In this document: piece after piece, positions 27,601-45,704 of the stretch
Layout of the letters: every line of letters starts with the position of its first letter
Position numbering within the stretch: the stretch's first letter is position 1
NCBI GenBank assembly: GCA_017625405.1
Contig: JAGALB010000017.1
Location: 1-46,030 of the forward strand
Direction of reading: 5' to 3'
Source of the DNA: Ruminiclostridium sp.
GTDB lineage: Bacteria; Bacillota; Clostridia; Oscillospirales; Ruminococcaceae
DNA: 46,030 bases
Translations under genes and position numbers: made by a program
Notes under the pieces: generated by a model
Databases searched by the model: none
The model's input: the letters and a program-made list of their open reading frames with translations, nothing else
Told to the model about the DNA's origin: nothing

Positions 27601-27853
27601 CAAGAGGATTTTCGCTTATAATCGGCTTTCCCGCAAGAGCTTTCAACGCAAAGATACAGCCTGCAACAATTGCCGCTGCCGCCGCAATGCCGAGAAATGT
27701 CCTGAAGCCTGAGGTTTTCCGTGGCTTTACAGTCTGCCTTTCGGTTATTTTAATTTCCGTTCCCTGACGCTTATACAATTCTTCGGCTGCTTCGTCTATG
27801 TATTTTTCGTCAAGCTCTGTCATGGCATTTTCAAGGATTTCAGCCCTGCTCAT
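24602..27853 (-). CDS. Giant single-pass membrane protein, predicted anti-sigma factor/sensor of ECF sigma B
   Basis: 1083 residues. A short cytoplasmic N-terminus (1-50) carries ELDEKYIDEAAEELYKR (13-29), then one membrane helix (about 51-72), then about 1000 residues outside the cell, rich in Tyr, Asp and Gly with no domain I can name. Its ATG overlaps the stop of the sigma B gene (ATGA). The 1054-residue protein at 42.5 kb is a paralogue: same N-terminal DEKYIDxAxEE, same topology, and a matching C-terminal module (YYLIRQMGMNQAQWLGYVDIFYYNG here near residue 850). Small membrane partners of ECF factors are usually 200-400 residues, so this one is very large. Role as anti-sigma is inferred from position and topology. 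Confidence 0.75.
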   Translation of the reverse strand: MSRAEILENAMTELDEKYIDEAAEELYKRQGTEIKITERQTVKPRKTSGFRTFLGIAAAAAIVAGCIFALKALAGKPIISENPLDSSLMDTAIKYDRMVISADGGMFTEIYTDIWDDYTVLAAELVQCLEETPLTATEYIPVSNGGVDCYSVSLYSGDVCDKYIITPCSTIENPYYTIITKNGKNYEASGDKPERIYEIFHELIFKTGVPAIAPGEYYLDGDYESGVLIAVLNGEIGIWGDNAYDFVKENCGEQNPDEVYKALSLKKYVISSIEMENHDKPIITEWDKNKKVNANQYEGTSYYYHSGSNMESDIIILFDHKFTLKPLENIEYKEEFDKGVIEFTDLKAADVLSNTGVGLQYYIHENGVSLFERISGGKGIELLSESVISDYRFDYYLDWNSLMTDSVLPSERVSMKYRKNDGSGSYFTVFAGQEGGGVPRIMMGNGMGLCFWDENGIKSVFNLDDGTTLEMKIGGVVFDGIEYYYAEWTDEKRKVNYSVSGIDCTRDDFIEVVIAIVYNICGGTTGFGWVPSTASPVDFSAYEMDFQIFHEYFNAVWLSDAGNDIEITLNDRMFSYDVPLLGFYKDEKGAYMAKQFIHTGEYVVYFVSEDDRNTLHQYLAKNNADGTYSISEQPDASLPKKSAGMPSKHAGMFGYIGLYELCQNTGLDFDLLHNLSFTDHNGVRWERSFNIGDLTCVTGVINYGGDGNPIKLALQFINAEDREERQYFACTFEYKNGEYQLAEFPNEPFRFDISVLDYENSQTAHAESIRQDIDAVTANGVTGCYLAADFYTYRVSEECYYLIRQMGMNQAQWLGYVDIFYYNGSEYIHVDEEYNSILGSCYWCYSDGYLYYLSRIYEGNKYYISCIKDGVELSCFEMGDIGNWYIPRYISVSDSANREVTVGFTESLSGHEIAQTIGFATPESPSYSTSEIIKSPETAVSDGYRYVDDVGVKQEKRGDYIVTGKPYLGDNIHLIEASQAEKLILMPYSTLIFTISENNDFKHNNSSEAWFSFSVNVEEESSVSVGAISGDNIYQIYNGAVYKEGGFSNFSLVDTLPDGEYRFFITNMSEDIQYYDFIGIAVT

Positions 27854-28392
27854 ACTTCAACACCCCTTTCCGACAAGAATATGCGAAGCTCGTTTCTCAT
27901 GCGTTTGAGTCTGGATTTTACCGCATTTTCGCTCATATTATAACCCGAAGCAATTTCCTTTACGGACATGCCGAAATAGTATCTTGCAGTGAACACAAGG
28001 CGGTTCTGCTTTTTCTGCTCTGACATAAAAGCATTTATATATTCCCCTGTCTGCTTTGAATCATAGGCTCTTTCCACGTTATTATCGCATGAAAGCACCT
28101 CTGATAATTCCTCGTAGCAGTTATCCTCATGCACTGCTGCTTTTCTGCGTATATTTATTGCGAGATTGCGCACTATCCTGCACAGATAGCCGCACAAAGA
28201 TTCGGGGTTTTTAGGCGGTATATTTTCCCAGAGCTTCTGATATGCGGAATTTATACATTCCTCCATATCCTCTTCATTCATAAGTATGTTATATGATATC
28301 TTACGGCAGAGCTTGCCGTATTTTGCGCCTGTTTCAGCTATTGCGCTTTCCGAACGTGAAAAGAATAAATCAATTATTTCTTTATCCGTCAC
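27850..28392 (-). CDS. ECF RNA polymerase sigma factor (sigma B of this window)
   Basis: 180 residues from a GTG at 28392, placed 7 bases after AAAGGGGG. The paralogous sigma E gene has the same AAAGGGGG and spacing before its ATG, which supports this start over the ATG 10 codons upstream. Region 2 is CRKISYNILMNEEDMEECINSAYQKLWENIPP, and region 4 is MSVKEIASGYNMSENAVKSRLKRMRNELR. The PPKNPESLCGYLCRIVRN block between is shared with sigma E almost unchanged. Its stop overlaps the ATG of the 1083-residue membrane protein. A GTTATAT box stands 27 bases upstream. Confidence 0.9.
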   Translation of the reverse strand: MTDKEIIDLFFSRSESAIAETGAKYGKLCRKISYNILMNEEDMEECINSAYQKLWENIPPKNPESLCGYLCRIVRNLAINIRRKAAVHEDNCYEELSEVLSCDNNVERAYDSKQTGEYINAFMSEQKKQNRLVFTARYYFGMSVKEIASGYNMSENAVKSRLKRMRNELRIFLSERGVEV

Positions 28393-28401
28393 ATTTATTC
28401 C

Positions 28402-28420
28402 CCCTTTCATATCATATAAC
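28402..28420 (-). promoter_or_regulatory. GTTATAT-N4-TGAAAGG box before sigma B
   Basis: On minus GTTATATGATATGAAAGG ends in the ribosome site of the sigma B gene. The sigma E gene (41970) has GTTATATAAAGTGAAAGG at the same distance, and the gene starting at 32638 has a third copy in its upstream region. It could include the -10 element of a shared promoter; the matching -35 is unclear. Confidence 0.4.
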
Positions 28421-28473
28421 ACTTTTTTCCACGAAAGGTGTCATTTGCAGTAGAATATTTTACAGAGCTGTTT

Positions 28474-30780
28474 TTATCTGATTTCTCCGCCGCCCCATTC
28501 TACAACCGTAAAGCCGTCACGTGCGTACTGAGGTAAAGTCTGCTCAGGCAGATAAACCTGATTTTCGCTTGCTCTGAAGGTCATAAACACTCTTATAACG
28601 CTGTCGGGAGCAGGAGAAACCGTAAGAGGAACAGCGTCTGCATAATCGTCGGTATGGAAGGTGATGACGTTATAGGGGTTTTCCAGCATTATGGGCAGCC
28701 AGTAGATGATAAACTCGTTGGCTTCTCTTGCTGTAAGTCCCATATACATAAGCTTTTCACGCAGAAATTCTGCGGTATCCTTTCCCTTTATGCAGAAACC
28801 CTCAGAGAAATCAAGGTTGTATTCTCCCTCGCCCTCCCAGTAAAGGCAGTAATACTCCTTCCCGTCCTTGTCATAGAGCGTTCCGTCGGGCATAGCTGTC
28901 ACATTCCAGCCGTCTGTGTATTCGGGATATGTGCAGGTAAGCTCGCCGTTGCCCTCAAAATCAATTTGAACGCTGACATCGGTTTCTTCTTCGGGGTAAA
29001 GGTAGATTACGGGTTTTGCATATGCACCGCCGAAACGGAATATATTTTCACCCTGATAGTATTCTCCCAGAAATCCGTCATCAACGAATTTTGCTAAATA
29101 ATAAGCTGTCATGCGGTCGCTCACAGGTATAAGTGTGGAATAAATATAAGCGTCATAGATAAAATCATTGCCTGCAAAATAATACCTTTCCTTATCCATA
29201 CGTTCCGAGAAAACATACTGTGCGCTCCACTCAAGCTGGTAACCATCATACTGTTCTGCCTGATGAGCGAGTGCCGCTTCATAGATGTCGGATTTTTCGG
29301 AAAAAGGTTCACCCATATAGAAAAGCACGTTAGGAACATATGTATTTTCAGGTACTTCAATATCCTCTTTCCATTCGCTGAATATTTCTTCAAATTCTAT
29401 ACTGTGTTCTCCGAGAGTCATAAAACCACGTACGTAGGAATCCACAGGGCGACGGTATCCGTCAATTACCTTTTCATCGGTTGTAAGCATTCCCACATAC
29501 CACTTTTTATTTCCGTTTTCGTCGGTATATCTTGTTAAATATCCGTCGCCTCTCTCAAAACCTACGGCAGGAATAAAGGAATCAACATACTGAAGAGTAC
29601 CGTTTACAAGACGGTAAATTGCGGTGCGGAGGTCTTTTTTCCCGTCGTTGTCATAGTCGCACAAGCTTGTAAGCAGCAGCTCGGGCACTTCGTCAAAATC
29701 AAGGTCAAGAAGAGTCATGCCTATACAGTTTTCATTGTACCAGTTCCCCTTGATGTCCATAAGTGCATTATACATTTCAGACATTTTATCGGGCTTTTCT
29801 TCGCTGTCGAAATCGAAATATGTTTTAGTGAGCGCATCGGCACCGTTCTGCTCAATTATTTCAAAGGATTTTAAAGTACAGCTGTACTCTGCGTCCTTTG
29901 TAAGAAAAACATCCATTTTATAATCGTCAAGTACGGCCGTACAGTAAATATATTCATCGGTCAGGACAGAAAGCAGGTCTTCATCTGCCTCAGCCGCAAC
30001 AGGCGGAGTATTTGTAACCGCTTCAACACCGTTTATTGTGTAATTATAAAGCTTTCCCAGTTCTGACGGCAGATAGAATGAGTACATAGGGTCAACCATA
30101 AGCTCTGCCTTGTCGCCGTTTTTACGTATAAAGCAGTTTACGGTGATTTCCTTTTCGGTATAAATGGAATATGTAGCTTCATTTATATAAATACTGCCGC
30201 CTGTGGTGCATTTTTCAACATCAAGTATTGTGGCGCTTTTGGTGAATCCATATGGGTTATCGGCCTCGTCGTCACTTCCCATATCGTATACTGAATAATT
30301 ATTTCCCACAACCGAACGTCCTGTGGCAACATCATATCCGTTATCATAAAGCACTTTGTCCAGAAGCGCAATATCGTCACCTGTAAAAAGCACACCTTTC
30401 AGGGAATAATAGTTATTCGAATAATATATACTGTCATTTTCACCTGTATTTATAATACGGCCGTCATCCATAAGTTCAAATTCACCACTGTACCAGCCTT
30501 TCGGAAGAGCCTCCATACCCATAAAACCGTTGTCGAAGGTACTTCGTGTCTGAAGATACTCCTCAACAGATACATATCTGAGAGGCGGCTGCGCCGTTAC
30601 GGCGGTGGTTGCAGAAGTTGTTGCAGAAGTTGTCACTGGCGTGGTTGTGACTGCCGCAGTTGTTATTTCCGCAGTTGTTACTGAGGCACTTTCCGCCTCC
30701 GTCTGCTCTGCCTTTTCTGCAGTATTACAGCTCGATAAAAGCATTGCTGCTGCAAGTAAAATTGATAATTTCTTTTTCAT
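28474..30780 (-). CDS. Large lipoprotein with C-terminal KPVIYLYP domain
   Basis: 768 residues. Lipobox LLSSC (Cys18) and a Thr/Ala-rich linker (about 20-65) anchor it outside. The middle part includes TLLDLDFDEVPELLLTSLCDYDNDGKKDLRT, a calcium-type DxDxDG stretch common in Ruminococcus secreted proteins. From 588 to the end comes a domain starting AKPVIYLYPEEETDVSVQID and continuing through TYPEYTDGWNV, PDGTLYDKDGKEY and YWEGEGEYNLDF; I recall this pattern from many Firmicute proteins without a described function. Upstream is the 11-bp-repeat promoter. The sigma B operon begins 82 bases downstream in the same direction. Confidence 0.82.
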   Translation of the reverse strand: MKKKLSILLAAAMLLSSCNTAEKAEQTEAESASVTTAEITTAAVTTTPVTTSATTSATTAVTAQPPLRYVSVEEYLQTRSTFDNGFMGMEALPKGWYSGEFELMDDGRIINTGENDSIYYSNNYYSLKGVLFTGDDIALLDKVLYDNGYDVATGRSVVGNNYSVYDMGSDDEADNPYGFTKSATILDVEKCTTGGSIYINEATYSIYTEKEITVNCFIRKNGDKAELMVDPMYSFYLPSELGKLYNYTINGVEAVTNTPPVAAEADEDLLSVLTDEYIYCTAVLDDYKMDVFLTKDAEYSCTLKSFEIIEQNGADALTKTYFDFDSEEKPDKMSEMYNALMDIKGNWYNENCIGMTLLDLDFDEVPELLLTSLCDYDNDGKKDLRTAIYRLVNGTLQYVDSFIPAVGFERGDGYLTRYTDENGNKKWYVGMLTTDEKVIDGYRRPVDSYVRGFMTLGEHSIEFEEIFSEWKEDIEVPENTYVPNVLFYMGEPFSEKSDIYEAALAHQAEQYDGYQLEWSAQYVFSERMDKERYYFAGNDFIYDAYIYSTLIPVSDRMTAYYLAKFVDDGFLGEYYQGENIFRFGGAYAKPVIYLYPEEETDVSVQIDFEGNGELTCTYPEYTDGWNVTAMPDGTLYDKDGKEYYCLYWEGEGEYNLDFSEGFCIKGKDTAEFLREKLMYMGLTAREANEFIIYWLPIMLENPYNVITFHTDDYADAVPLTVSPAPDSVIRVFMTFRASENQVYLPEQTLPQYARDGFTVVEWGGGEIR

Positions 30781-30810
30781 GATTTTCTCTCCTTATGTTG
30801 TTTTGTTTTA

Positions 30811-30883
30811 ATTATATCACGGTAAATATTCAAAAGCAATTACAAAGTGGTTACAAAATTCTTACAATCTGGTTACAAAATCT
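30811..30883 (-). promoter_or_regulatory. Activator-type promoter with four 11-bp direct repeats
   Basis: On the plus strand TTACAAAGTGG TTACAAAATTC TTACAATCTGG TTACAAAATCT (30840-30883), exact 11-base period; on the gene strand this reads TTGTAA-N5. The -10 TATAAT is at 30816-30811 (minus) and there is no -35 hexamer; the repeats start 24 bases upstream of the -10. This is the geometry of PhoB/OmpR-type activators. An almost identical block lies at 37951-38023. Confidence 0.72.
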
Positions 30884-30885
30884 AT

Positions 30886-30913: not shown

Positions 30914-30943
30914 CAGGGCCTGTGATTTGTGCCGTTTTCATTA

Positions 30944-32807: not shown

Positions 32808-32811
32808 GTTC

Positions 32812-32840: not shown

Positions 32841-32863
32841 ATAACAAAAAGGAGTGATTGTCA

Positions 32864-33412
32864 ATGATTTCTGCAGCCTTGGCTGTGCTTGGTTCAGAAG
32901 CCGAGCGAAACGAATTATCACACATATATGAGCAGAATATCAGGCTTTTTTATGCAGTTGCATTTTCAAAGCTACATAATCAGCATGACGCCGAGGACGC
33001 AATACAGGAAGCATTCCTGTCTGTTGCAAATAATCCATCTTTATTGTTCAGAGTGCCTGCCGAAAAAAGAGTGGCATATATAAATATAATTGTCAGAAAT
33101 AAAGCATATACAATCTGGAACAAAAAGCATAAAACCGAAGAAAATCATACAGAACTCTATGATACGGTTTTTGATGAAGATATATCAACCGAAGAAAAAG
33201 TAATCAGCGATTTTTCCTGCAGGCAAATACTGAAATTCATTGATACATTATCCGAAGCCAACCGTTCTGCATTGTACCTGAAAATACATTTTGGTTTTGG
33301 AAATGACGAAATAGCGGATGCTCTCGGAATATCCGAAGAAGCGGCAAAAAAGAGGATTTCGAGAGCTGCAAGCCGCATCAGACAATATATGGAGGAACTG
33401 AAAGATGAATAA
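32864..33412 (+). CDS. ECF RNA polymerase sigma factor (sigma C of this window)
   Basis: 182 residues from the ATG at 32864 (AGGAG nine bases upstream; a TTG two codons earlier is too close). Region 2 is RLFYAVAFSKLHNQHDAEDAIQEAFLSVANN (near 28-58). Region 4 is NDEIADALGISEEAAKKRISRAASRIRQYM. It is clearly paralogous to sigma D at 40.9 kb (shared ER..(L/I)S..Y and LHN.H.AEDA..EAFL). It overlaps the next gene by 8 bases (ATGAATAA), coupling it to a DUF4367-like membrane protein. Confidence 0.92.
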   Translation: MISAALAVLGSEAERNELSHIYEQNIRLFYAVAFSKLHNQHDAEDAIQEAFLSVANNPSLLFRVPAEKRVAYINIIVRNKAYTIWNKKHKTEENHTELYDTVFDEDISTEEKVISDFSCRQILKFIDTLSEANRSALYLKIHFGFGNDEIADALGISEEAAKKRISRAASRIRQYMEELKDE

Positions 33413-34121
33413 AAGTTATTCAGTAAGTGATCTTGTTTCGCTTTACTATGAAAATGAATTTGCCTGTATCGAAGAAATACCTGTTCCCGGTTTTTCTCTA
33501 CGTCATAAATCTTCTATGAAAAGAGCGTTCAGAAAATTTAAAAAGAACAGCCAAAATCTTTATTTAAACAGTTATAATATCCCCGCAAGAAGAAAAAACA
33601 GGCTTAACAGAAGAACCATTATATTAGCAATAGTGCTTGCCTTTTTAGCCTTGATTTCAGGCTGTGCCGTAGCACAATTCTTATCAGGCAATTTCCGTGG
33701 TGAAGTTTATCATGACAATACCGAATTGTTTGTAGTAGACGCAAGCAATTCACCTGAATTCATTGAATACAAATACAATCTGACAGAAATACCGGAAGGT
33801 TTTTCTCCTATTACCGAAGAGTGGTTTTCCACCCCATTTATGGTATATTATCTTTATGAAAAAGAAAATACAAGAGATCATATTATTCTTTCTCAGTCTA
33901 CCAAGGCTGATTTTGGTTCTATCCATTTAAACACTGAAAAAGGCGAATTAACCGATATAACGGTGAATGGTCATAACGGCGTATGCCTTTCCATAATTGA
34001 AGATAATGACAATTATGCGTGCATTATATGGGATAACGGCGATTATATATTAGAAATAAGTGCAAATATGGAAAAAGAAAAAGTACTGGAACTGGCAGAA
34101 AAAGTTGAGATTGAAAAATAA
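33405..34121 (+). CDS. DUF4367-like membrane protein, predicted anti-sigma factor of sigma C
   Basis: 238 residues. A basic cytoplasmic part of about 70 residues (KRAFRKFKKNSQN, ARRKNRLNRR) is followed by one membrane helix (about 70-92, TIILAIVLAFLALISGCAVAQFL) and an outer domain of about 140 residues. The outer part ends in GSIHLNTEKGELTDITVNGHNGVCLSI...IIWDNGDYILEIS, the pattern of DUF4367, and matches the protein at 41.1-41.7 kb (RLNTENAILEPQQISINGWKGLYF). Overlap with the sigma gene and topology point to an anti-sigma role. A terminator follows directly. Confidence 0.82.
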   Translation: MNKSYSVSDLVSLYYENEFACIEEIPVPGFSLRHKSSMKRAFRKFKKNSQNLYLNSYNIPARRKNRLNRRTIILAIVLAFLALISGCAVAQFLSGNFRGEVYHDNTELFVVDASNSPEFIEYKYNLTEIPEGFSPITEEWFSTPFMVYYLYEKENTRDHIILSQSTKADFGSIHLNTEKGELTDITVNGHNGVCLSIIEDNDNYACIIWDNGDYILEISANMEKEKVLELAEKVEIEK

Positions 34122-34251: not shown

Positions 34252-37200
34252 TTATTCATATAATGCATCATCATTCCAGACAAACCCCTCATACTCCATA
34301 ATCTCCTGGGCTGTATATGTGTTTCCGCGATAAGAGAAGCTGCATTCCGGCATAGCAAACTCCGTGTCGGAATAAACATCTTTCAAAAATATCATAGTAA
34401 CATATTCAACGCTGTCAGGAATAGTAACAACACCTGTAAGTGGACAATTATAGAATGCTCCGAATCCGATAACCTCAAGGTTTTCATTAAACTCAACCTT
34501 GCTGAGAGTTTTACAGTTGTAAAAAGCATAAGCATTGATGCTTATCAGATTTTCAGGGAAAATCACCTCTTCAAGAGAAGTTGATCCAAAAGCGGAACTG
34601 CCGATAGAAATCAGACTGTCGGGAAAAGTGATATTCTTCAGTTTTTTGTTATCCCAGAACGCTCTATCGGCTATATGTACTACGCCGCCAGGAACAACGT
34701 ACTGCGTTTTTGTATCGGGACACCAGTAAAGAGTTTTCATATCCTTGCTAAAAAGTACATCATCAACAACTGTATAGTACTCGTTTTCTTCGCTTATTGT
34801 AATCTTTTTACAGCTATCCGGGACATATATATCATTCCCCATATATGTATTTCCCTCAATTACAATTTCTTCAACAGAAAGCTCTTCGGGATAATAATAA
34901 TTTTCAGGATTGTAATAATTATAGTAAAATGTGAATATACCATTCGGCAATTCCTTTACCGATTTTGTTACAACCAGCTTTTTAAGATTTACAAGTCCGC
35001 AAAAAGCGTTGGAATCAATATTTTCAACCGTTTCGGGAATAGTGAATTCCGTATAATCCCCAAGAACAAAATACAAGGTTTTCAGATTCTTGCTGAAAAA
35101 CATACCGTCTTTATAAACATAATTATTATTTTCTTCGGGAATAATAATTTCTTTAAGATTTTCGCAGGTTCCGAACTGAATGAAATCCACTGATCGAAGT
35201 TCCTTCGACAATGTCACCGATTCAAGAGAAGAACAGGCTTCAAAGGCACGGTTATCTATGGTAAGAACAGAGTCGCACAGAATTACAGATGTTATTTTAT
35301 CGTTATCCTTGAACACTGAATATGAAAGCTCTGTTATTGGCACTTCGGTCTTGTATTTCCTCAAATCCACAACCGCATCGCTGCCTTTATAATTTACAAT
35401 CACTATTTTTCCATACTTGTTCATTCGGATATCGAAATCCTCCGCAAGTTCAGTGGCAGCCATAATCGCTGCAACGGAGCTTTCACTCATCTCTTTACCT
35501 TTATAGATGTAAGTTACAGGTGAAAATTCTGTTCCCGAATGCTTAAATCCGCCGAAATCATCAGGAAGAGTTATAACAGCAGCAGATTCGCTTGAAAAAC
35601 CTCTTGTAAATGCATTGAATTCAAGCTGACCGAGAGAGCCGTTTATTGTTATTTCCTCTGCATTGCCGCAATTAAACGCCCTTTCACAGATGAGGTCTAT
35701 ATTTTCAAGCGTGATTTTCTTTACATTTGAACAACCCCAAAAAGCACCTTCATATATCTTAAGAATACCATCAGATTTTAAAGAAATTTCAGTCAGCTCT
35801 CTGCATCCTTCAAAAGCATCTTCGCTTATAAGAGTGAGCGTATCAGGGAACTGAACGGATGAGAGCACTGAACAAAGCCTGAATGCTTCATCTCCAATAA
35901 TTTCAAGACCTTCGGGCAGTTTAACGCTTGTTATATCCGTAAACATAAACGCCTGTCTGTCTATTTCCGTTACTCCGTCGGGAATTATAACCTCGCTTTT
36001 GTTTCCGTAATAGGAAATAACACGCTTTCCATCACCGCTTAAAACAAGATTATCTGTAATGATAAAATTCTTGTTTTTATCCGATATAAAGATTTTTTCA
36101 AGATTTCTGCAATTGGCAAAGGCACCTCCGTCTATTTTTGTTACTGTATCGGGAATATACAGGGTTTTCATTTCGGCACCGCTGAAATCTCTACCTATAT
36201 GTGTGACTTCCATACTGTTTATCTTTGCAGGAAGTACATATTCCTGTTCCTTGCCGTCATACCCCTTTATTCCCCATGAAAAAGCTTTTGAACGGAATTC
36301 AAGTCCGTCATCACAGTGATAATACGCTTCGTGACCCGTACCCCACCATTCCAAAGCACTGTCTGTGTCGACAACAATACGCTTATTGTATTTTTCCCTG
36401 CCATATATAGTTCCTTTAAAAAATTCTTCTGCGGCATACTCGTTTTCCTGGTATATAACCTTTTCAAGGGCGGTGCAATCCTTGAATAAATCCACAGCGT
36501 CGTGACTCCAGTCATCAGACAGATATACGGTTTTCAAAGAAGTACAGCCCTCAAAAACAGATTCTCCGAAATATTCGGGCATTATAGCGAATTTTACGGT
36601 TTCAAGAGATGTACAATTTTTAAAAACGCCGCTTCCAATCCCGTCTATACTGATAGGCAAAGATATTTCCTTGAGTGAGATGCAGTTTTCAAAAGTTAAT
36701 GATGATATTATTTTGGTTGAAGTACGGAAAGACACCTCTTCAAGAGCTGTACAGCCACTGAAATGACCTTTTCCTGTATTATTCGTGACATGAGCGCTTT
36801 TTAGTGATGTGCAATCCGAAAAAACATAATCTCCGAAATTCATAGCAATAATATCCGTGCTTTCAAGAGAAGTACAACCCCTGAATGCCTCATTGTCAAT
36901 TTCAAAAGGCGCAAAAGAATATTCAGTATTTATTTCTTTCAAAGCTGTGCAGTTTCTGAAAGCACCTTCATTTATATAATATGTTCTTTTCTTCATTAAA
37001 ATTTCCTCAAGCAAGGTGCAATTTTCAAAAGCACAACTACCAATATTTAAAAGATGCTTGGGAAATTCAATTTTCGCAACATCCTTGACACTGCTGCCTG
37101 CAATTGATACGATTTGTTTTCCGTCAGAAACAGTATCGAGAAATATTATATTATTACTTTCGCTGTTATCCAGAAATATTTCCACCGCTGCTGTTCTGTC

Positions 37201-37398
37201 AAAAGTATGGTGTGCCACATAATCTATATCATCAACTGTCATTTCATCATCTGTCACAACATGCGGTTCATCAATAACGATCTCTTCAACTATATCGCTT
37301 ATCTCTGTAACAGCAGTTTCCTCGCTTTTTTCACAGGCGGTTAAACTTATACAAAGCAATAAAACAAAGACTGAACTGATTATATGTTTTGCTTTCAT
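34252..37398 (-). CDS. BspA-type leucine-rich repeat lipoprotein
   Basis: 1048 residues. Lipobox SLTAC (lipid Cys22) then a Glu-rich spacer to about 50. The rest is built of many LRR_5/BspA repeats of about 23 residues with the pattern I.(A/D).AF..C..L..(V/I).(L/I)P, for example AFRLCSVLSSVQFPDTL and AFEGCRELTEISL; blocks are broken by short insertions (GYDGKEQEYVLPAKINSMEV). Such proteins act as surface adhesins or binding scaffolds. It starts 21 bases after the 168-residue gene and is in its operon, under the 11-bp-repeat promoter at 38.0 kb. Its end lies 40 bases from the tRNA remnant. Confidence 0.9.
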   Translation of the reverse strand: MKAKHIISSVFVLLLCISLTACEKSEETAVTEISDIVEEIVIDEPHVVTDDEMTVDDIDYVAHHTFDRTAAVEIFLDNSESNNIIFLDTVSDGKQIVSIAGSSVKDVAKIEFPKHLLNIGSCAFENCTLLEEILMKKRTYYINEGAFRNCTALKEINTEYSFAPFEIDNEAFRGCTSLESTDIIAMNFGDYVFSDCTSLKSAHVTNNTGKGHFSGCTALEEVSFRTSTKIISSLTFENCISLKEISLPISIDGIGSGVFKNCTSLETVKFAIMPEYFGESVFEGCTSLKTVYLSDDWSHDAVDLFKDCTALEKVIYQENEYAAEEFFKGTIYGREKYNKRIVVDTDSALEWWGTGHEAYYHCDDGLEFRSKAFSWGIKGYDGKEQEYVLPAKINSMEVTHIGRDFSGAEMKTLYIPDTVTKIDGGAFANCRNLEKIFISDKNKNFIITDNLVLSGDGKRVISYYGNKSEVIIPDGVTEIDRQAFMFTDITSVKLPEGLEIIGDEAFRLCSVLSSVQFPDTLTLISEDAFEGCRELTEISLKSDGILKIYEGAFWGCSNVKKITLENIDLICERAFNCGNAEEITINGSLGQLEFNAFTRGFSSESAAVITLPDDFGGFKHSGTEFSPVTYIYKGKEMSESSVAAIMAATELAEDFDIRMNKYGKIVIVNYKGSDAVVDLRKYKTEVPITELSYSVFKDNDKITSVILCDSVLTIDNRAFEACSSLESVTLSKELRSVDFIQFGTCENLKEIIIPEENNNYVYKDGMFFSKNLKTLYFVLGDYTEFTIPETVENIDSNAFCGLVNLKKLVVTKSVKELPNGIFTFYYNYYNPENYYYPEELSVEEIVIEGNTYMGNDIYVPDSCKKITISEENEYYTVVDDVLFSKDMKTLYWCPDTKTQYVVPGGVVHIADRAFWDNKKLKNITFPDSLISIGSSAFGSTSLEEVIFPENLISINAYAFYNCKTLSKVEFNENLEVIGFGAFYNCPLTGVVTIPDSVEYVTMIFLKDVYSDTEFAMPECSFSYRGNTYTAQEIMEYEGFVWNDDALYE

Positions 37399-38085: not shown

Positions 38086-40377
38086 TTATTCAACTTTGAA
38101 TTTCGCTTCGATGATATCGGACTGACCAGGATTCATATTGCCGTTTTCATATTCAGAATACATGAGCATAACGGTATATTCGCCCGGAACGTCTAAAGAT
38201 GATTCGGGGATATTTTCAATTTCCGCCCACATCTCCTTAAGATAGCCATCAAGATACTCTTTCAGTTCGTCTTCCCTTGTATCACCGAACATACTGCTGT
38301 AATATTTTTTAAAAGCTTCATAAGACGAGCCGTAATTAACCAGCGTAAAGGTTTTCTTTTCGCCGTATTTTATAATAAGCTTTTCTTCGTCATGGTCCAG
38401 AGGCATACCAAGGCAGGCAGGTGCATCATCCTTATAACAGCCTGCAACGAAAACCATAATATCATTCTTGCTGTAAAGTCTGTTTTCAACAGTAATCTCT
38501 ATTTTCTCCGCTTTCAACGGATAACTGCTCTTATCAAAAGTGATGAAAACACCGCTGTTCTTTTCTTCTTCGCTTGCTTTTTCTACCTTTATGGAAACTG
38601 AAACGCTTGTGTCGGCATAGCCCTGCGCTTCAACAGAGAACTGAACCGTATAATCGCCCACAGAAAGAGGCTTCTTCAAAGGTATATTTATTTCTCTGTC
38701 ATCTCCGCTGTAAACACGAGTGCTTAGCTTATCCTCAAGAATAACATCACCGTTTTTGTCCTTTACTACAGCATTTACAACTGTTACATCAGCAAGAGCT
38801 TTATTTGTCACTTTAAAGCTCAGTGTTTCATCCATATCGTTGAGCTCGTTATCGATGCATTCTGCAGAAATGCCCTCAAGCTTCAGAATTTCAAGGTTGA
38901 AATACGCATAAAGAGTGCTGTGACGGTCAACAAAGTCAAGACCATCCATTTCGCCAACCGAAACTCGTATGCGGTATTCGCCCTCTCTGGACAAATCGAA
39001 AAGCGATGAGTCAACCTCAATGCCGTCCAGGAAAGACAGCACACGGCCGCTGCCGATAGAGTTGGTTCTTACCTTACCTCTTCTGACAGAAACCCACTTA
39101 CCGTTTTCCTTTCGTTCAATATCATAAACCTCACTTGTTGAGAAGAAGCTGTCACCATAGTTATAATCATATAAAGCTTTGATATATCCGCAGTCCACAG
39201 GATAAACCGATTTTTCGCAGGTTATAGTTCCTGTTATGTTAGCTTCTTCCTCAGGCATATCCTTAAGGTCAAAACGGTAGTATGCCGTATAAACCGTTTC
39301 ATCTCCCTCAACCTTATAAGGCTTTGTTATACGGTATTTTCCGGCAGGTAAAAGAGGATAGCAGGCAAGGTCAACAAAGCAGTGTTTTTTGTCAAAATCA
39401 GAGAATCTTGAACCATTGGACTGCTCAAGTTCGCCTATGGGTTCAACTGTTACCCACTTTCCGTTTTTGTTGGTTTCGAGACCATACTCAAATGTAGTGT
39501 AGCAGGTTTTATCGGTGTTGGGATAGAATACCGACTCAATAACCGACGGAACGTTGGCGGGATAGGATTTTAAACCGGAACTGCCGTCATAATTTTCGCC
39601 TACAACCAAAGCCTCTCCCGTTTCAGATTCTTCCGAATCCAAATCAACATTATATTTTTCTGTATACTGTTCTTTTGCTATCGGTGCAAGCAGTTCATCG
39701 CATTTATTCACGAGTGCTGTGTAATCGCACATATATTTATCGTAATCAAGCAGATAGCTTTTCTTACCTCTTTCGTCTTCTCCGTGAATATTTATGCCTA
39801 TATGCTTTGTTTCATCTTCGCTTATCATGTACATAACGGTAAGCTCATCACCGTTTTCAAATCCGAAATACAACGCTTCATCTCTCATTGCGTCAAAATA
39901 CACCGACTGTTCTTCATCTCTCGGCAAAAATTCAAGGCTTTTAAGCTCTGCAAAAATCTCCGAAGCTACTGCCTTATCGGTTATTTCAAGCTCAGCTTCA
40001 TAGGTTCCGTCTGCTGCATAATAGCTTGTTTTCAGATATGTAACTTCATCCTCTGATAATGTCAGCAGTCTGTCAAGATATCCGCTGTTTTCGGCTGAAT
40101 CCTCATCAGAAGCGTCTGCTGCTCCCGGTCCACCCATTGCCATACCTGGCCTGATTTCAGGCGGCATAAGCACAGAGGTCTCTGTTGTTTCAGATGTACC
40201 CGCTGTGGTTTCCTCCGTGGATGCTGATGTTATTTCCGTAGTATCTGCAGTAGTTTCTTCCGTCAGCGAAGATGTTGTCGTCGCTTTGTCTGCAGCTTCA
40301 ATATCGCTTTGTACGGTTGTTTCGGCACAGCCGCAAAGCAGACATGTTACACATAATAATGCCAATAGTTTTTTCAT
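38086..40377 (-). CDS. Large lipoprotein with Ig-like domains, co-transcribed with sigma D
   Basis: 763 residues from the ATG at 40377 (GAGGA eight bases upstream), 4 bases after the stop of sigma D. Lipobox LLCGC (Cys17) and a Thr/Ser/Glu linker (about 25-65) place it outside. Residues about 90-230 form a compact mixed domain (LSEDEVTYLKTSYYAADGTYEAELEITDKAV). Several beta-sandwich stretches follow, including one CARDB-like (ETLSFKVTNKALADVTVVNAVVKDKNGD...PLSVGDYTVQFSVEAQG). It cannot bind the sigma factor directly because it lies outside, so it is more likely a target or a ligand-binding partner of the system. Confidence 0.82.
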   Translation of the reverse strand: MKKLLALLCVTCLLCGCAETTVQSDIEAADKATTTSSLTEETTADTTEITSASTEETTAGTSETTETSVLMPPEIRPGMAMGGPGAADASDEDSAENSGYLDRLLTLSEDEVTYLKTSYYAADGTYEAELEITDKAVASEIFAELKSLEFLPRDEEQSVYFDAMRDEALYFGFENGDELTVMYMISEDETKHIGINIHGEDERGKKSYLLDYDKYMCDYTALVNKCDELLAPIAKEQYTEKYNVDLDSEESETGEALVVGENYDGSSGLKSYPANVPSVIESVFYPNTDKTCYTTFEYGLETNKNGKWVTVEPIGELEQSNGSRFSDFDKKHCFVDLACYPLLPAGKYRITKPYKVEGDETVYTAYYRFDLKDMPEEEANITGTITCEKSVYPVDCGYIKALYDYNYGDSFFSTSEVYDIERKENGKWVSVRRGKVRTNSIGSGRVLSFLDGIEVDSSLFDLSREGEYRIRVSVGEMDGLDFVDRHSTLYAYFNLEILKLEGISAECIDNELNDMDETLSFKVTNKALADVTVVNAVVKDKNGDVILEDKLSTRVYSGDDREINIPLKKPLSVGDYTVQFSVEAQGYADTSVSVSIKVEKASEEEKNSGVFITFDKSSYPLKAEKIEITVENRLYSKNDIMVFVAGCYKDDAPACLGMPLDHDEEKLIIKYGEKKTFTLVNYGSSYEAFKKYYSSMFGDTREDELKEYLDGYLKEMWAEIENIPESSLDVPGEYTVMLMYSEYENGNMNPGQSDIIEAKFKVE

Positions 40378-40381
40378 AATG

Positions 40382-40954
40382 TTATCCTCTTTCCTCAAAT
40401 TTCAAAAAACAGTATTTGCTGATTCCATAATCCTTTTCCAATGCACTTCTCATTATTTTTCTCGCTTTTCTTATACGTGCATATACCGTTGCCGTTGATA
40501 TTCCCATAGAGTCAGCAACCGTTTCTGCGTCAATATCAAGAACATACCGCATTATAATTGTCTGACGCAGTTCATCGGGCAGCTTGTTTATAACATCAAA
40601 GGCGGAAGTTTCCTCTACCTTTTTATACTCCGCATAAGCACTTTCATCTTCTACTGATTCATCAAGTTCTTCCACTATTTCAGACCGTTTGTCCTTTTTG
40701 AGCATATCAAGTGCAACATTTTTTACGATAATGGAAACAAGCGCTGCTGTTTTCTTTTCACTTTCAAAAGTAAGCTTATGAATATTTTTTATAATTTTAA
40801 GAAACGCTTCATGAACAGCGTCCTCGGCGCTGTGTGCATTATGCAGTACGCCAAAAGCTGTCGCATACATTTTCTGCTCGTGTTTTGTATATAAATCCGA
40901 AATCAGATTGCGTTCATCCGGAGTTTCCACCATGGATAAATAAAATTGCAGCAT
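40382..40954 (-). CDS. ECF RNA polymerase sigma factor (sigma D of this window)
   Basis: 190 residues; GAGGAG eight bases before the ATG. Region 2 is KMYATAFGVLHNAHSAEDAVHEAFLKIIKNI (about 28-58), and region 4 is AETVADSMGISTATVYARIRKARKIMRSAL. It is paralogous to sigma C. The probable anti-sigma gene (DUF4367-like) lies 120 bases upstream in the same direction rather than downstream, and the gene after it is a lipoprotein. A sigma-A type promoter with TATAAT stands 29 bases before the start, so basal expression is housekeeping-driven. Confidence 0.92.
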   Translation of the reverse strand: MLQFYLSMVETPDERNLISDLYTKHEQKMYATAFGVLHNAHSAEDAVHEAFLKIIKNIHKLTFESEKKTAALVSIIVKNVALDMLKKDKRSEIVEELDESVEDESAYAEYKKVEETSAFDVINKLPDELRQTIIMRYVLDIDAETVADSMGISTATVYARIRKARKIMRSALEKDYGISKYCFLKFEERG

Positions 40955-40982
40955 ACATATTTCTCCTCATTTTTATAAGTCA

Positions 40983-41011
40983 ATTATAACACTCGGATAA
41001 AAGAAATGCAA
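40983..41011 (-). promoter_or_regulatory. Sigma-A type promoter of sigma D
   Basis: On minus TTGCAT (41011-41006), 17 bases, TATAAT (40988-40983), 29 bases before the ATG. It separates the sigma D gene from the DUF4367-like gene transcriptionally. Confidence 0.7.
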
Positions 41012-41073
41012 TATGTCACTGCTATTCATGCCATAGTATAGAATCATATCTTTTGTAGCTTATCATTTTAATT

Positions 41074-41727
41074 TCATTCAAATCTTGTAGCATTTATTAT
41101 ATTTTCTATTTCCTCTTTAGGCAGGTTACTGGTATATGATATAAGATATTCACCTGTGTTGAACAGAAAATAGTAGCCACCGTGCTGGGGCTGAAAATAC
41201 AAACCTTTCCAGCCGTTTATAGAAATCTGCTGAGGCTCAAGAATGGCATTTTCAGTGTTCAGTCGTATACCTCTTGCCAGCGACAACGGCTCCTGATTCA
41301 CCGACAGAAGAATATCACCTTTCTTATAGGAAAGCCAGTAACCTATATCTTCATCACATACGGTTTCAACTTCATAATCACTCATATCCAGATCAATGCA
41401 GAATTTCTTCTCAATCTTCGTTTTCCCTGTTTCGTAATCATCAACAATATACAGTAATGAATGTGTATCGTAATCGGTAACCCTGAATCCCTCAATCATA
41501 CTGTATACACCAAAGCCTGCAAGCACAGCAATTGCGGCTGATATAACAGCAATGAGAAGATATTTCAGCCGAAAATGTCGGGTTTTCTCTATACTGACAA
41601 ACGATTTTTCGTAGTCTTTGATTATTTTTCTTTTGCGAATTTTATAGCTTAATGAAAATCTGTGCTGCTGTTCAGATGATTCGACTACAGTGTCAAGTAC
41701 GCATTCTTCAAATTTACTTAATCCCAT
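41074..41727 (-). CDS. DUF4367-like membrane protein, predicted anti-sigma factor of sigma D
   Basis: 217 residues. A cytoplasmic part of about 50 residues (SYKIRKRKIIKDYEKSFVSIEK), one membrane helix (about 53-76, YLLIAVISAAIAVLAGFGVYSMI) and an outer domain with the DUF4367 pattern (GIRLNTENAILEPQQISINGWKGLYF, FNTGEYLISYTSNLPKEEI). It is homologous over the outer domain to the sigma C partner at 33.4 kb. It stands before, not after, the sigma gene, which is unusual. An alternative is a stand-alone sensor unrelated to sigma D. GGAGGAAAG precedes the ATG. Confidence 0.78.
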   Translation of the reverse strand: MGLSKFEECVLDTVVESSEQQHRFSLSYKIRKRKIIKDYEKSFVSIEKTRHFRLKYLLIAVISAAIAVLAGFGVYSMIEGFRVTDYDTHSLLYIVDDYETGKTKIEKKFCIDLDMSDYEVETVCDEDIGYWLSYKKGDILLSVNQEPLSLARGIRLNTENAILEPQQISINGWKGLYFQPQHGGYYFLFNTGEYLISYTSNLPKEEIENIINATRFE

Positions 41728-41969
41728 ACTTTCCTCCGTTTTAATAAAAATTCCCTCTATTATATATAACTTTTTTAAATTGATTTTTTATAATGATATC
41801 AGATAATTTATTGGAAATATTTGCACTATCTGTATACTATGCTTTTTTATCCCACATTTTATAATCCGATTTCTTCAACATATATTAATTGAAAACAGCA
41901 GCATTATATGATATAATTTTTTTGTGAAAAATTTTTTTAAAAATGTGAAAGATTTCCACTCAAACATTA

Positions 41970-41987
41970 GTTATATAAAGTGAAAGG
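41970..41987 (+). promoter_or_regulatory. GTTATAT-N4-TGAAAGG box before sigma E
   Basis: GTTATATAAAGTGAAAGG at the same distance from the start codon as the box before sigma B. The upstream 240 bases (41728-41969) are very AT-rich and hold no gene. Confidence 0.4.
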
Positions 41988-41997
41988 GGGAAGAAGC

Positions 41998-42543
41998 ATG
42001 GATGATTTAAGTATAATAGAGCTGTTTTTTCAGCGTTCGGAAAAAGCGATTACCGAAATAAAGCTGAAATATAATTCGCTCTGTATGAAAATTGCAAATT
42101 CCATACTGTTAAACTATGAGGATTCAGAGGAATGTCTCAATACATCATATCTTAAGATATGGAACGCTGTTCCGCCAAAGCGCCCTGATTCCTTATGCGG
42201 ATATCTGTGCAGAATTGTCCGTAATACCGCTTTAACTTTATATAAAGCCACCTCACGCCGCAGCTTCTTTGAAAAATATGAGGAGCTGAGCGAAATTTAC
42301 CGTTTCGGCGAGACAGTTGAAGAGATAATGGACAGCAATATGCTTGGGGATTACATCAACGAATTTCTTAAAAAGGAAAATCCAAAAACACGGCATATTT
42401 TTATTCTGCGGTATTATTTCAATATGGCGGTAAAGGATATTGCAGACAGTCTGGAAATGAGTGAGCAGGCTGTAAGCTCAAGACTTATGCGTGCAAGAAA
42501 CAATCTGCGAAAATTCCTTTCAGAAAAGGGGGTAGAGGTATGA
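41998..42543 (+). CDS. ECF RNA polymerase sigma factor (sigma E of this window)
   Basis: 181 residues from the ATG at 41998, 7 bases after AAAGGGGG; an ATG six codons upstream overlaps that ribosome site. Region 2 is CMKIANSILLNYEDSEECLNTSYLKIWNAVPP, followed by PDSLCGYLCRIVRNTAL; region 4 is MAVKDIADSLEMSEQAVSSRLMRARNNLRKFL. It is a close paralogue of sigma B, sharing the LFF.RSE N-terminus and the KGVEV / RGVEV end. Its TGA overlaps the ATG of the 1054-residue membrane protein (ATGA), exactly as in the sigma B pair. Confidence 0.93.
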   Translation: MDDLSIIELFFQRSEKAITEIKLKYNSLCMKIANSILLNYEDSEECLNTSYLKIWNAVPPKRPDSLCGYLCRIVRNTALTLYKATSRRSFFEKYEELSEIYRFGETVEEIMDSNMLGDYINEFLKKENPKTRHIFILRYYFNMAVKDIADSLEMSEQAVSSRLMRARNNLRKFLSEKGVEV

Positions 42544-45500
42544 GCGAGATAAACGAAAAGAAATGGGAAGAAGCTCTTGAAAAGATAGATGAAAAATACA
42601 TAGATAAAGCGATAGAAGAAATGGCTTCTCATTCTGAAGAAGCAAAAATTACAGCTGAAAAATCCTTTAACAAAGGTGTAAGAATCGCAAAGATAACAGG
42701 CGGTATTGCCGCTTCGGTTGCGGTTATAGCAGGTGTTGGCGCAATAATGAATGCAAACGGTATAACCATAAGCGAGCTCTGGGAAATGCGCCCGTCGGAG
42801 GTTACCACAACGACAACAACTATACCGAATATTTCCGAAACAACCACAACACCCGTAACCGATAATACCACCACTCCTCCTGTATCGGATACCGAAGAAA
42901 CTGATGTTCCTGATGATACACCCGAAACAATCCTTATGGGCAAAAGCTTTATTACACAGAACGGTTATGAGTATTCCTTTTCCTATGAATATACTCAGAC
43001 AGGCGGTGAAACCCGCGGCATAATGAGTAAGCTCAGAATGGAGGTTGTTGACCTTAAAAATGACAATGAACACATCTGCGATGATGACATCACTGATTTA
43101 TCTATTGTGGGTGATAACATTGAAATTTACAATGAAGAAAACACATATAACTGCGTTGAACTGCAGGTGTTTGAAATGTCCGATTATGACCTTGTGCATA
43201 TAAATATTCCTCACAAAATTGAGGGACAAAGCTACGGTGCAGATAATCAGTCGGTGTTCCTTATTATGACTGAAAACGACGACGGAACATACAGCTTCAA
43301 GGACGTAAAGGGACCTGACGGAAACGATTTTGAATGTTATCCGAATTCAGTTTACAAGCTTAAAGACGAGGACGTCATATTAATTTACGACGGCTATATT
43401 TCAAAAAACGCTTACAAGGTTGATATTGAAAACCTCAGATTTACTGAATATCAGCTTTCCGATATAGACAGCGACGAAGCAAATATAGTGGATATTATAG
43501 CAGACCTTGAGCCGCTCAGTGCCGAAGAAGAGTTCTCAATTTATGAAAACCGTTTCTATGGAAAATGGGAATTAGCTTATACAGGTCTCAGTAACAGATA
43601 TGCAAATGACGGCATGGAGGACAGAAATTTCTCCTACTATGGCGATACCTCAACCGAAAGCTGGGGTTCTTATGAAAGAGGCTTTTATGAGGACGAAACA
43701 GGCTGGTATATGACAGGACTTAACGGCGGTATCGGAAATGCTCACTTTATTCCGAAAAATGATCCCGATACAATGTATTTCTATCAGGAGATGCCCTGCC
43801 AGAAAAATCAGTATTACTGCATATTCACACGTAATGAAAATGAAACAGAATATGATACTTATATAAATGCAGGCAGTCTTAACAATATAGGCTTACGTAA
43901 GCTTCAGCATATTACAGGCTGTGATTTGTCATCAATAATTACCACAGAAAATGGCACATTAAAGCTTGATGACGGCAGCGAATGGACAACTGCCACAAAT
44001 CTCTACTACGGCACAGGAAAAACCTATCTGAATGAAATAACGGAAAACAGAATACGTATTTCACAGCGTTATTTCACCACAGATGTAAGCCTTTATGACC
44101 CATTTTCAGACACAAATGTCCCCTACCCTGAGATGCAGTACGTCACATTTACAATTGATAAGGTTGACGGTCAATGGAAGCTTACTGCTGCGGACAGATA
44201 TGACCGAACTCTTGAAACGCATGATGGTATGCCCACTGAGTTTACAGAAAGCAGCTTTGCCGAAGCGGAAAAAACAAGGAATGAACATGGCATAACTGAC
44301 CTTGAAGCGGTGATTGCAGTAGAATATTTCACCGATTCCACAGGTCGTTATTATGCCCTTCGCAATATCGGAATAAATCAGGCGCTTAATTTCAGCTATG
44401 CTGAACTGTATTATTTCAACGGTGTTGAATACGAGCTTCTAATGGCTCGTGATGCGTATGTAGATGTTGCCTTCATGAATGATATAATCTATATTTCATG
44501 GCAGAACTATGAGCTTGACGAGCAGTATATTGAGTATTACAGTAAAACGTCAGTAATGGGTCTTAACGGCAATGGTATCGCTATCAAAGGCACAGGTCTG
44601 TCAGGCTTCAACACCTTTGAAAACTGTATTGTCTATACTTGTCTGAACGATGAAGTTACTCAGTATGTCATCAACGGTGACAGGCACAACCCCAAATTCA
44701 CAGAGATTAAAAACATCGACTACCCCGACGGAAGCTCAGGTTTCAGGGCTGAAACAAAGGATGGCGAAATAATCACTTACAGCGATTCTTCCACAAAGCT
44801 TTCAGATCAGTTGTGGCTTTTAAATTCACGTATGGAAAGCATTTACGATATGCTCTGGGGCGGTGATATAAAGGTGGATATGAATGATAGGGTAAATATC
44901 AATGAAATGTCCTGCGGTTATGTTGCTGACTATAATCTGCATGATTATTTCCTTGAAACAGTTGGATATGAGCTTGCTGACGGGCTGATTAACAATGCAC
45001 CCGCAAAACTCTACCTTTACAACGGAAAATACTATGCGCCCGAAATGACAGGCTATACACCAAAGTATGCAACCTCTTATGAAATCATCAGCGAAAATCA
45101 GAATACCGCAGAGGTTAAATACACCATATATATGCGCAGCGATCCGTACAGCGTTGCATACTTTACAGGCCCCTACACATACACGGCAACGCTTACCCGC
45201 ACCGAATCCGGCTGGCGGTTTGAAAGCTTTAAGATCGACGGTGTTGATGCACCCTTATCCATAGGCGATATGTCACAGAAGCTTATGACATGTATCGGAC
45301 ATTACCGCCTTTATTCCGATACTCCAGAAGCAAACTCGGTTGATACGAATGACAGCATAACTGTTGACGGGAATACTTATTACTGTCTTGATACCTATGA
45401 CGGCTTCAAAGAATATGAATCAGGGTTCTTTTCAGAAAAAGCCGTGGACGAAATACTGTTGAAGCTGGATACAATAAGAGTTTCAGACGGTAAGGTATAT

Positions 45501-45704
45501 ATGCGCCATGAGCCGAGTGAAAAAGTCGTAGATTATACTTATAATTTCACACTGGAAAAAGCTGATTCTGATTCAACAGAGCTTTCTGTTACCTTCTGGA
45601 ACGAGGAAAATGAAATATTAGGCGCTGTTGCTGAGGGTATACCGTTTACTTTCATATGTGAAAATGATAAGTGGGTGTTGGATAGTTTCAGTTTTCCTGA
45701 ATAA
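42540..45704 (+). CDS. Giant single-pass membrane protein, predicted anti-sigma factor/sensor of ECF sigma E
   Basis: 1054 residues. Cytoplasmic N-terminus with KIDEKYIDKAIEEMAS (15-30), membrane helix at about 50-70, Thr/Pro-rich linker at 88-116, then about 930 residues outside, acidic and Tyr-rich. It is paralogous to the 1083-residue partner of sigma B: same N-terminal motif and the same module YYALRNIGINQALNFSYAELYYFNG (about 600-625). The Thr-rich linker, typical of this organism's lipoproteins, is present here but absent in the sigma B partner. No known catalytic motif is seen. A strong terminator ends the operon. Confidence 0.75.
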   Translation: MSEINEKKWEEALEKIDEKYIDKAIEEMASHSEEAKITAEKSFNKGVRIAKITGGIAASVAVIAGVGAIMNANGITISELWEMRPSEVTTTTTTIPNISETTTTPVTDNTTTPPVSDTEETDVPDDTPETILMGKSFITQNGYEYSFSYEYTQTGGETRGIMSKLRMEVVDLKNDNEHICDDDITDLSIVGDNIEIYNEENTYNCVELQVFEMSDYDLVHINIPHKIEGQSYGADNQSVFLIMTENDDGTYSFKDVKGPDGNDFECYPNSVYKLKDEDVILIYDGYISKNAYKVDIENLRFTEYQLSDIDSDEANIVDIIADLEPLSAEEEFSIYENRFYGKWELAYTGLSNRYANDGMEDRNFSYYGDTSTESWGSYERGFYEDETGWYMTGLNGGIGNAHFIPKNDPDTMYFYQEMPCQKNQYYCIFTRNENETEYDTYINAGSLNNIGLRKLQHITGCDLSSIITTENGTLKLDDGSEWTTATNLYYGTGKTYLNEITENRIRISQRYFTTDVSLYDPFSDTNVPYPEMQYVTFTIDKVDGQWKLTAADRYDRTLETHDGMPTEFTESSFAEAEKTRNEHGITDLEAVIAVEYFTDSTGRYYALRNIGINQALNFSYAELYYFNGVEYELLMARDAYVDVAFMNDIIYISWQNYELDEQYIEYYSKTSVMGLNGNGIAIKGTGLSGFNTFENCIVYTCLNDEVTQYVINGDRHNPKFTEIKNIDYPDGSSGFRAETKDGEIITYSDSSTKLSDQLWLLNSRMESIYDMLWGGDIKVDMNDRVNINEMSCGYVADYNLHDYFLETVGYELADGLINNAPAKLYLYNGKYYAPEMTGYTPKYATSYEIISENQNTAEVKYTIYMRSDPYSVAYFTGPYTYTATLTRTESGWRFESFKIDGVDAPLSIGDMSQKLMTCIGHYRLYSDTPEANSVDTNDSITVDGNTYYCLDTYDGFKEYESGFFSEKAVDEILLKLDTIRVSDGKVYMRHEPSEKVVDYTYNFTLEKADSDSTELSVTFWNEENEILGAVAEGIPFTFICENDKWVLDSFSFPE

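Follow-up and report, generated by a model that had tools for sequence, protein, structure and literature searches.

Modular pairs of an ECF sigma factor and a putative transmembrane anti-sigma factor with exchangeable ectodomains in Ruminiclostridium sp.

A 46,030-nucleotide (nt) stretch of the Ruminiclostridium sp. assembly GCA_017625405.1 (contig JAGALB010000017.1, positions 1 to 46,030; here called the window) carries two genes for extracytoplasmic function (ECF) sigma factors, sigB and sigE, each of which overlaps the gene for a very large membrane protein, partner B or partner E. Each pair probably forms an ECF sigma/anti-sigma unit complete in itself and belongs to a modular family in which the outer sensors can be swapped and the sigma factor would be released in a manner like that of RsgI and RsiV. 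The pairing of the genes, the membrane topology (taken throughout from hydropathy only), the breadth of the family, the exchange of its ectodomains, the promoter-like elements and the terminator-like hairpins can all be read from the sequences. The new elements are probably the N-terminal segment, which has no assigned family, and the unusual set of ectodomains, the way of working being that known for RsgI and RsiV. The readout is probably of hydrolases rather than polysaccharides.

Two ECF sigma factor genes overlap genes for large membrane proteins

A preliminary description of this DNA had reported two sigma/partner pairs overlapping by ATGA, and the coordinates, lengths and overlaps proved exact for both. 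The features of the two pairs are as follows.

27850..28392, minus strand: sigB, ECF sigma factor of 180 amino acids (aa) with a GTG start; start and Shine-Dalgarno sequence read in the sequence
24602..27853, minus strand: partner B, putative transmembrane anti-sigma factor of 1083 aa; ATGA overlap with sigB
27701..27853, minus strand: partner B residues 1-51, predicted cytoplasmic and sigma-binding segment (alignment, motif, co-variation)
27644..27700, minus strand: partner B membrane helix, residues ~52-70, with an Ala-Ala run (hydropathy; core TFLGIAAAAAIVAG)
25049..26227, minus strand: partner B residues 543-935, module common to partner E (similar part 543-827) and to the L153/L155 relatives (BLASTP, phmmer, alignment)
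41998..42543, plus strand: sigE, ECF sigma factor of 181 aa
42540..45704, plus strand: partner E, putative transmembrane anti-sigma factor of 1054 aa; ATGA overlap with sigE
42540..42692, plus strand: partner E residues 1-51, predicted cytoplasmic and sigma-binding segment (alignment, motif, co-variation)
42693..42749, plus strand: partner E membrane helix, residues ~52-70, with Ala-Ala (hydropathy)
43518..44501, plus strand: partner E residues 327-654, module common to partner B and partly to other proteins of the genus (BLASTP)

The products of sigB and sigE share 53% identity and have the composition of ECF sigma factors, with Sigma-70 regions 2 and 4 only in ~180-190 aa. Pfam matches above the cut-offs were obtained for Sigma70_r2 (E values of 9.3e-7 for sigB and 4.3e-6 for sigE) and Sigma70_r4_2 (9.5e-10 and 4.6e-11, respectively), and the NCBIfam model TIGR02937 was also above its cut-off for both (8.5e-21 for sigB). 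Profile searches of the PDB with the sigma sequence matched SigW, SigE and CnrH.

Both partners show the general layout of a transmembrane anti-sigma factor, namely a sigma-paired gene, a cytoplasmic N terminus, one helix and an outer C terminus. The inner segment carries DEKYIDEAAEE at residues 15-25 of partner B and DEKYIDKAIEE at residues 17-27 of partner E, and is followed from approximately residue 52 by a single hydrophobic helix, with no second above the threshold used, and ~1000 residues outside, all as previously described. In pairwise BLASTP the two N termini were 40% identical over 63 aa (E value, 2e-6), and residues 543-827 of partner B aligned with residues 329-631 of partner E (23% identity; E value, 2e-8). 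This second stretch includes a NQA...YYxNG motif (residues 806-824 in partner B and 610-628 of 1054 in partner E). It had been presented as a shared C-terminal module; the sharing was borne out, and its position lies in the C-terminal half of partner B but in the middle of partner E.

Partner B matched no Pfam or NCBIfam family, and no fold, function or IseA-like domain could be assigned to its outer region. Its relatives comprise a full-length protein (L155 in G174; 28-29% identity) and a partial one (L153 in G173), and its last 90 residues gave one more weak match, to a 247-aa frame of G173 (E value, 0.003). Partner E has an ortholog with 68% identity (L177/L154); L177 is on contig JAFUNV010000004.1 of 'Ruminiclostridium sp.' RGIG4664 from roe deer rectum. 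Sequence searches of the PDB with the ectodomains found nothing, the best matches, to serotransferrins (E value, 0.41) and a dynamin-related protein (0.43), being taken as chance.

The pairs belong to a widespread family with partners of variable length

Of 148 genomes sampled from the GTDB family to which the window belongs, 65 had a sigma factor of this subfamily (E ≤ 1e-15), as had 58 of 71 genomes of the genus (E ≤ 1e-20) and 50 of 291 genomes sampled from the class (E ≤ 1e-40; no more than 11 candidates were scored in any one genome). To assemble partners, the gene downstream of the sigma gene was read in 60 regions, and 56 partners were kept; four partner calls (L044, L068, L069 and L095) were judged wrong, and a duplicate (L091) and a truncated copy beside a second sigma gene (L079) were also left out. 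Partners B and E brought this set to 58. A further 40 regions from the genus, mostly picked for large size, supplied 42 partners, including two truncated ones (L137 and L163); L167, L168 and one sigma gene each in L160 and L162 were without a partner. The combined set of 100 partners, B and E included, is no census of size, since size guided the choice of most of the 42.

The 61 complete open reading frames (ORFs) of the first call are less size biased, although they still include four wrong partner calls. They ranged from 111 aa (one of the wrong calls) to 1078 aa, with a median of 348 aa, and 47 of the 61 overlapped the sigma gene by 4 nt. The same overlap was found for 27 of the 42 genus partners, which measured 491-1752 aa, and in at least 13 genus genomes an N-terminal match was followed by an open frame of 1627-1765 aa. 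Over all 100 partners the lengths were 177-1752 aa, a spread within one family that led us to reject the giants as a class; because of it they are seen as the long end of one family, common in the genus. The earlier proposal of a new class of transmembrane anti-sigma factor with an oversized sensor therefore stands in part: the N terminus is without a known family and outer regions can be very large, but oversize is not a mark of the family.

The N-terminal segment carries a conserved motif and varies with the sigma factor

Alignment of the partners gave an N-terminal motif close to L-x-x-A-[IL]-G-x-I-D-[DE]-K-Y-I-x-E-A. In 29 of the 100 partners a strict form of the motif core lay within the first 60 residues, compared with a mean of 0.01 and a maximum of 1 in shuffled sequences, and in 80 a relaxed form lay within the first 50 (shuffled mean, 17.4; maximum, 30). 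All 100 had one helix starting between residues 32 and 72 and no second above the threshold, and in 98 the helix region contained Ala-Ala (shuffled mean, 69.7; maximum, 83). No conserved site-1 (AxA) signal emerged: AxA followed the helix core in only 38 of the 100. An M50 protease is encoded in the window's genome (E value, 1.9e-59); together with the Ala-Ala helices it supplies the features associated with intramembrane proteolysis of the RsiV/RsgI type.

The N-terminal segments of partners B and E matched nothing in Pfam or NCBIfam, not even weakly, and a PDB profile search with the N terminus matched no known anti-sigma domain. Its best hit, a designed repeat protein (E value, 0.006), was followed by outer surface protein A, a prion and others, and these were taken as chance. 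The zinc anti-sigma (ZAS) group, the cytoplasmic domain of which carries the motif HxxxCxxC, was rejected, as this motif was absent from the first 80 residues of all 100 partners.

Across 100 pairs, distances between sigma factors correlated with distances between N termini (r = 0.50; largest of 2000 permutations, 0.086) and less with distances between ectodomains (r = 0.30). Among sigma factors less than 50% identical, the values were 0.27 for the N terminus and -0.02 for the ectodomain. We read the sigma factor and the N terminus as the pair to which ectodomains appear to be attached and exchanged.

Inhibitors, wall enzymes and repeats among the ectodomains

Pfam scans of the first 58 partners (E ≤ 0.01) identified serpin domains in two, BspA leucine-rich repeats (LRRs) in three, and M23, PASTA, transpeptidase, solute-binding protein and DUF4179 domains in one each. 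Among the 42 large partners (E ≤ 0.001) there were six with alpha-2-macroglobulin, six with Big_5, three with M23 and two with WG repeats. Of the macroglobulin matches, L138, L139, L140 and L170 were seen by name; L137 and L169, which belong to the same length class and are 46% and 70% identical to L138, were taken as the other two. These six partners are ~1600-1750 aa long. CxEQ, the thioester motif of alpha-2-macroglobulins, was found in none of the six (L137 being truncated).

Besides B and E, the window's genome has two other pairs, one with LRRs and M23 and one with a serpin. The 705-aa partner at L038:2387-4501 (genome C22) has BspA LRRs and two M23 domains, the first retaining both M23 motifs, HxxxD and HxH, and the second being short of one His of HxH. 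The 523-aa partner at L039:855-2423 (genome C20) has a complete serpin domain (E value, 3.5e-66).

Serpins in the genus amounted to 39 matches across 31 of the 71 genomes, and 30 of these loci were examined. The family N terminus was present on 12, each with a sigma gene of the subfamily as its immediate neighbor: 10 come after a sigma gene, two of them with a second sigma gene behind as well. The remaining 18 had no visible family N terminus and by eye mostly started with ordinary export signals. In L219 the serpin is cut at the contig start, its N terminus out of view, and is followed by a sigma gene; L191 is without the family N terminus. The hinge read Gly-Cys in 11 of the 12 N-terminus serpins (L039 among those with the Cys) and in L219, compared with Gly-Thr in the 11 free serpins with the hinge shown. 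Separately, the serpin partner genes of L217, L218, L208, L211 and G204:C118 have a sigma gene of this subfamily immediately downstream, which may reflect tandem units or a reversed order.

The ectodomains that can be recognized (serpin, alpha-2-macroglobulin, IseA-like, M23 and transpeptidase) point to hydrolases and the envelope.

Two probable IseA-like domains at the end of partner E

IseA (YoeB; PF16800) is a free secreted inhibitor of wall DL-endopeptidases. Homologs and an ortholog suggest that residues 754-1050 of partner E are probably of this type; in contrast to the free protein, the domain would occur here in two copies and be anchored to a putative anti-sigma factor.

44799..45236, plus strand: partner E residues 754-899, first IseA-like (PF16800) domain (homologs, ortholog, profile search)
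45327..45689, plus strand: partner E residues 930-1050, second IseA-like domain (ortholog; profile match with an E value of 3.8e-7 before inclusion)

The ortholog L177 matched PF16800 above the cut-off (33.4 versus 29.9 bits) in two stretches, the better at 936-1058, and a relative cut at a contig edge (L119, G196:C138) fell just below it with 27.8 bits. Across the aligned homologous stretch, PF16800 was matched by four of five members, partner E being the fifth. A profile of the first copy found the second copy in partner E and copies in L097 and L060, and later rounds added L148 and L156.

Promoter-like elements and terminator-like hairpins flank both pairs

28413..28443, minus strand: ECF-type promoter-like element of sigB, TGACACCTTT-11-GTGTTATATG, lying in the gap before the gene and conserved ahead of the L155 and L153 relatives
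41947..41975, plus strand: sigE promoter-like element, GAAAGATTT-14-GTTATA, conserved upstream of the L154 ortholog
24548..24573, minus strand: intrinsic terminator-like hairpin after partner B, with an 11-bp stem and a T run (-22.3 kcal/mol; z, -4.5)
45705..45742, plus strand: 16-bp hairpin of terminator-like form downstream of partner E (-21.9 kcal/mol; z, -7.2)

The promoter-like element of sigE differs from that of sigB. Of 103 sigma genes, 18 had the ECF -35 element TGNNACNTTT in the 130 nt before them, compared with 0-3 in ten shuffles; a de novo spaced-word search of the upstream regions returned mostly A/T runs. With mismatches allowed, the window contained five matches to the sigB pattern (1.7 expected) and five to the sigE pattern (3.3 expected). 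One two-mismatch copy of the sigB core lies at 40986-41009 on the minus strand, ~30 nt upstream of another sigma gene (40382-40954).

Terminator-like hairpins followed 29 of 95 partners, compared with two in one shuffle each. The hairpin after partner E was absent from a rule-based terminator scan, perhaps owing to the T run in its stem. Just past the partner B terminator, positions 22945-24471 encode a CotH-kinase-domain protein with its own sigma-70-like promoter.

Proposed mode of action and comparison with known systems

From these features we infer sigma binding, proteolytic release and the signal in the following scheme. The first ~50 cytoplasmic residues, with the motif around I-D-[DE]-K-Y-I-x-E-A, would hold the sigma factor, the single Ala-Ala helix would span the membrane, and the outer part would serve as an interchangeable sensor. 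By analogy with RsgI and RsiV, a signal would render the outer part cleavable; an M50 site-2 protease would then cut the helix, leaving an XAA end open to ClpXP, and the sigma factor would be set free. The freed sigma factor would transcribe its own two-gene operon from an ECF-type promoter, as suggested by the upstream sequences alone. For partner E, the two probable IseA-like domains at its end would make a peptidoglycan endopeptidase, or the wall state that it controls, the likeliest signal. Partner B has the common central module. The unusual length of the two partners would be one end of the wide size range.

RsgI likewise is described as having a cytoplasmic N-terminal domain, one helix that is mostly XAA, a large variable sensor and many paralogous pairs per genome (PMC12203970, PMC6056542). 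In Clostridium thermocellum, XAA in most RsgI helices is presented as the ClpXP signal after RseP cleavage (PMC12203970). The pairs differ in their sigma factors, which are ECF with region 4, whereas SigI is reported to have another C-terminal domain instead (PMC6056542), and in their recognizable ectodomains, which are inhibitors, wall enzymes and repeats rather than carbohydrate-binding modules (CBMs). Membership in RsgI was rejected, as no RsgI Pfam match was found (partner E gave chance-level unrelated matches at E ≤ 1) and both sigB and sigE have region 4.

RsiV of Bacillus subtilis is described as both receptor and inhibitor of lysozyme (PMC5014341). Like the proposed partners it is an ECF anti-sigma factor, and its outer domain binds and inhibits the sensed hydrolase and is then cut by signal peptidase and RasP (PMC5014341). 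It differs in being 285 residues long with DUF4163/DUF3298; Pfam found these domains in neither partner B nor partner E, and RsiV membership was rejected.

Several observations weigh against the proposed scheme. Twenty of the 100 partners have neither the strict nor the relaxed motif, N-terminal conservation is modest (mean column identity, 18%), and the co-variation with the sigma factor partly reflects common ancestry, which inflates the r values. M50 proteases occurred in all 14 control genomes as well, so that the presence of one here says little. The strict -35 pattern accounts for only 18 of the 103 sigma genes, and the sigE promoter does not fit it. Partner E itself falls below the Pfam reporting threshold for PF16800, and a structure model of it built from two sequences was uninformative (mean predicted local distance difference test score [pLDDT], 31; predicted template modeling score [pTM], 0.22). 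Finally, two of the N-terminus serpins have their only visible sigma gene downstream: in L211 the contig ends 188 nt upstream, and in L208 more than 1 kb upstream is without a sigma gene.

Alternative explanations

An unlikely but arguable alternative is that the ectodomain is foremost an effector, an inhibitor or wall enzyme, with the N terminus reporting its consumption and the sigma factor mainly rebuilding its own partner. Both operons look sealed, each with an ECF-type promoter element, two genes and a terminator-like hairpin, and the frequency of such hairpins after partners fits this arrangement. In a search of the whole genome for exact promoter cores, the sigE core (AAGATTT-N13-15-GTTATA) occurred once and the sigB core twice, the only site besides their own lying inside an ORF. 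Serpins and macroglobulins, both recurrent among the ectodomains, are elsewhere traps consumed by proteases. However, the genome search took exact motif copies only, so weaker targets would have been missed, and the hinge is altered in the anti-sigma serpins and the thioester motif missing from the six macroglobulins.

It is improbable that the ectodomains sense polysaccharides in the way that those of SigI/RsgI pairs do in cellulolytic clostridia. The second sigB core site (C52:17121-17143; L185:1122-1144) lies ~460 nt upstream of an 833-aa gene, which by eye we take to encode a GH94-like phosphorylase, but the site is within another ORF. The layout of cytoplasmic N terminus, one helix, large sensor, paired sigma factor and XAA is also that described for RsgI (PMC12203970). 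Against this, Pfam, applied to the 100 partners at the thresholds given above, identified no CBM or glycosidase family, apart from a single weak GHL10 match in L153 (E value, 0.1), and the recognizable domains of partner E are IseA-like. The polysaccharide sensing raised in the preliminary description was thus not upheld.

That the partner is merely a co-transcribed surface protein, its conserved N terminus a membrane-targeting or secretion signal with no anti-sigma role, would suit a short segment that matches no known anti-sigma domain but is very improbable, given that the N terminus tracks the sigma factor while ectodomains swap, that both forms of the motif are above chance, and that all 12 serpins with this N terminus sit beside a sigma gene (10 after, 2 before) and others do without it.

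Other sigma factor genes and neighbors in the window

With sigB and sigE included, the window has five ECF sigma genes in ~24 kb. The other three lie in regions 17739-19108, 32858-34121 and 40382-41727, near a DUF4179-like gene (weak match; E value, 0.44) and two DUF4367 genes. Such DUF4179/DUF4367 partners resemble the proposed family as small single-helix proteins next to clostridial ECF sigma factors, but they have other domains, and DUF4179 was found in one of the 58 scanned family partners. The DUF4367 gene near position 40382 is upstream of its sigma gene, a gene order unlike that of the other pairs. The end of that sigma gene is overlapped by an ORF (38086-40398) for a 770-aa lipoprotein-like product with a Big_14 domain, and a 1048-aa secreted-looking BspA-type LRR protein (LRR_5 E value, 2.8e-112) is encoded near the sigma cluster at 34252-37398.

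Implications

Anti-sigma factors rank among the chief means by which Gram-positive bacteria sense their surroundings, and a constant cytoplasmic segment with a swapped outer domain would constitute a natural set of input modules. For a serpin or macroglobulin module, the expected input, a protease, can be guessed. A bolder idea, offered tentatively and held to be doubtful, is that the anti-sigma factors of a large family in Clostridia have consumable hydrolase inhibitors or wall enzymes (serpin, alpha-2-macroglobulin, IseA-like, M23, transpeptidase) as their outer domains, the inhibitor being sensor and effector at once. An attacking protease or wall hydrolase would alter or cleave the ectodomain and so set off intramembrane proteolysis, and the freed sigma factor would chiefly renew the used-up protein from its closed, self-driven operon of two genes. 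The titles and abstract openings of the searched literature describe no serpin, macroglobulin or IseA anti-sigma factor, and no description of a plug-in surface-sensing system of this kind was found. If the proposed scheme is true, the principle of RsiV, a receptor that inhibits what it senses, would be extended to proteases and wall endopeptidases, and many such large hypothetical membrane proteins of gut and rumen clostridia would gain a function, together with a rule for their sigma pairing.

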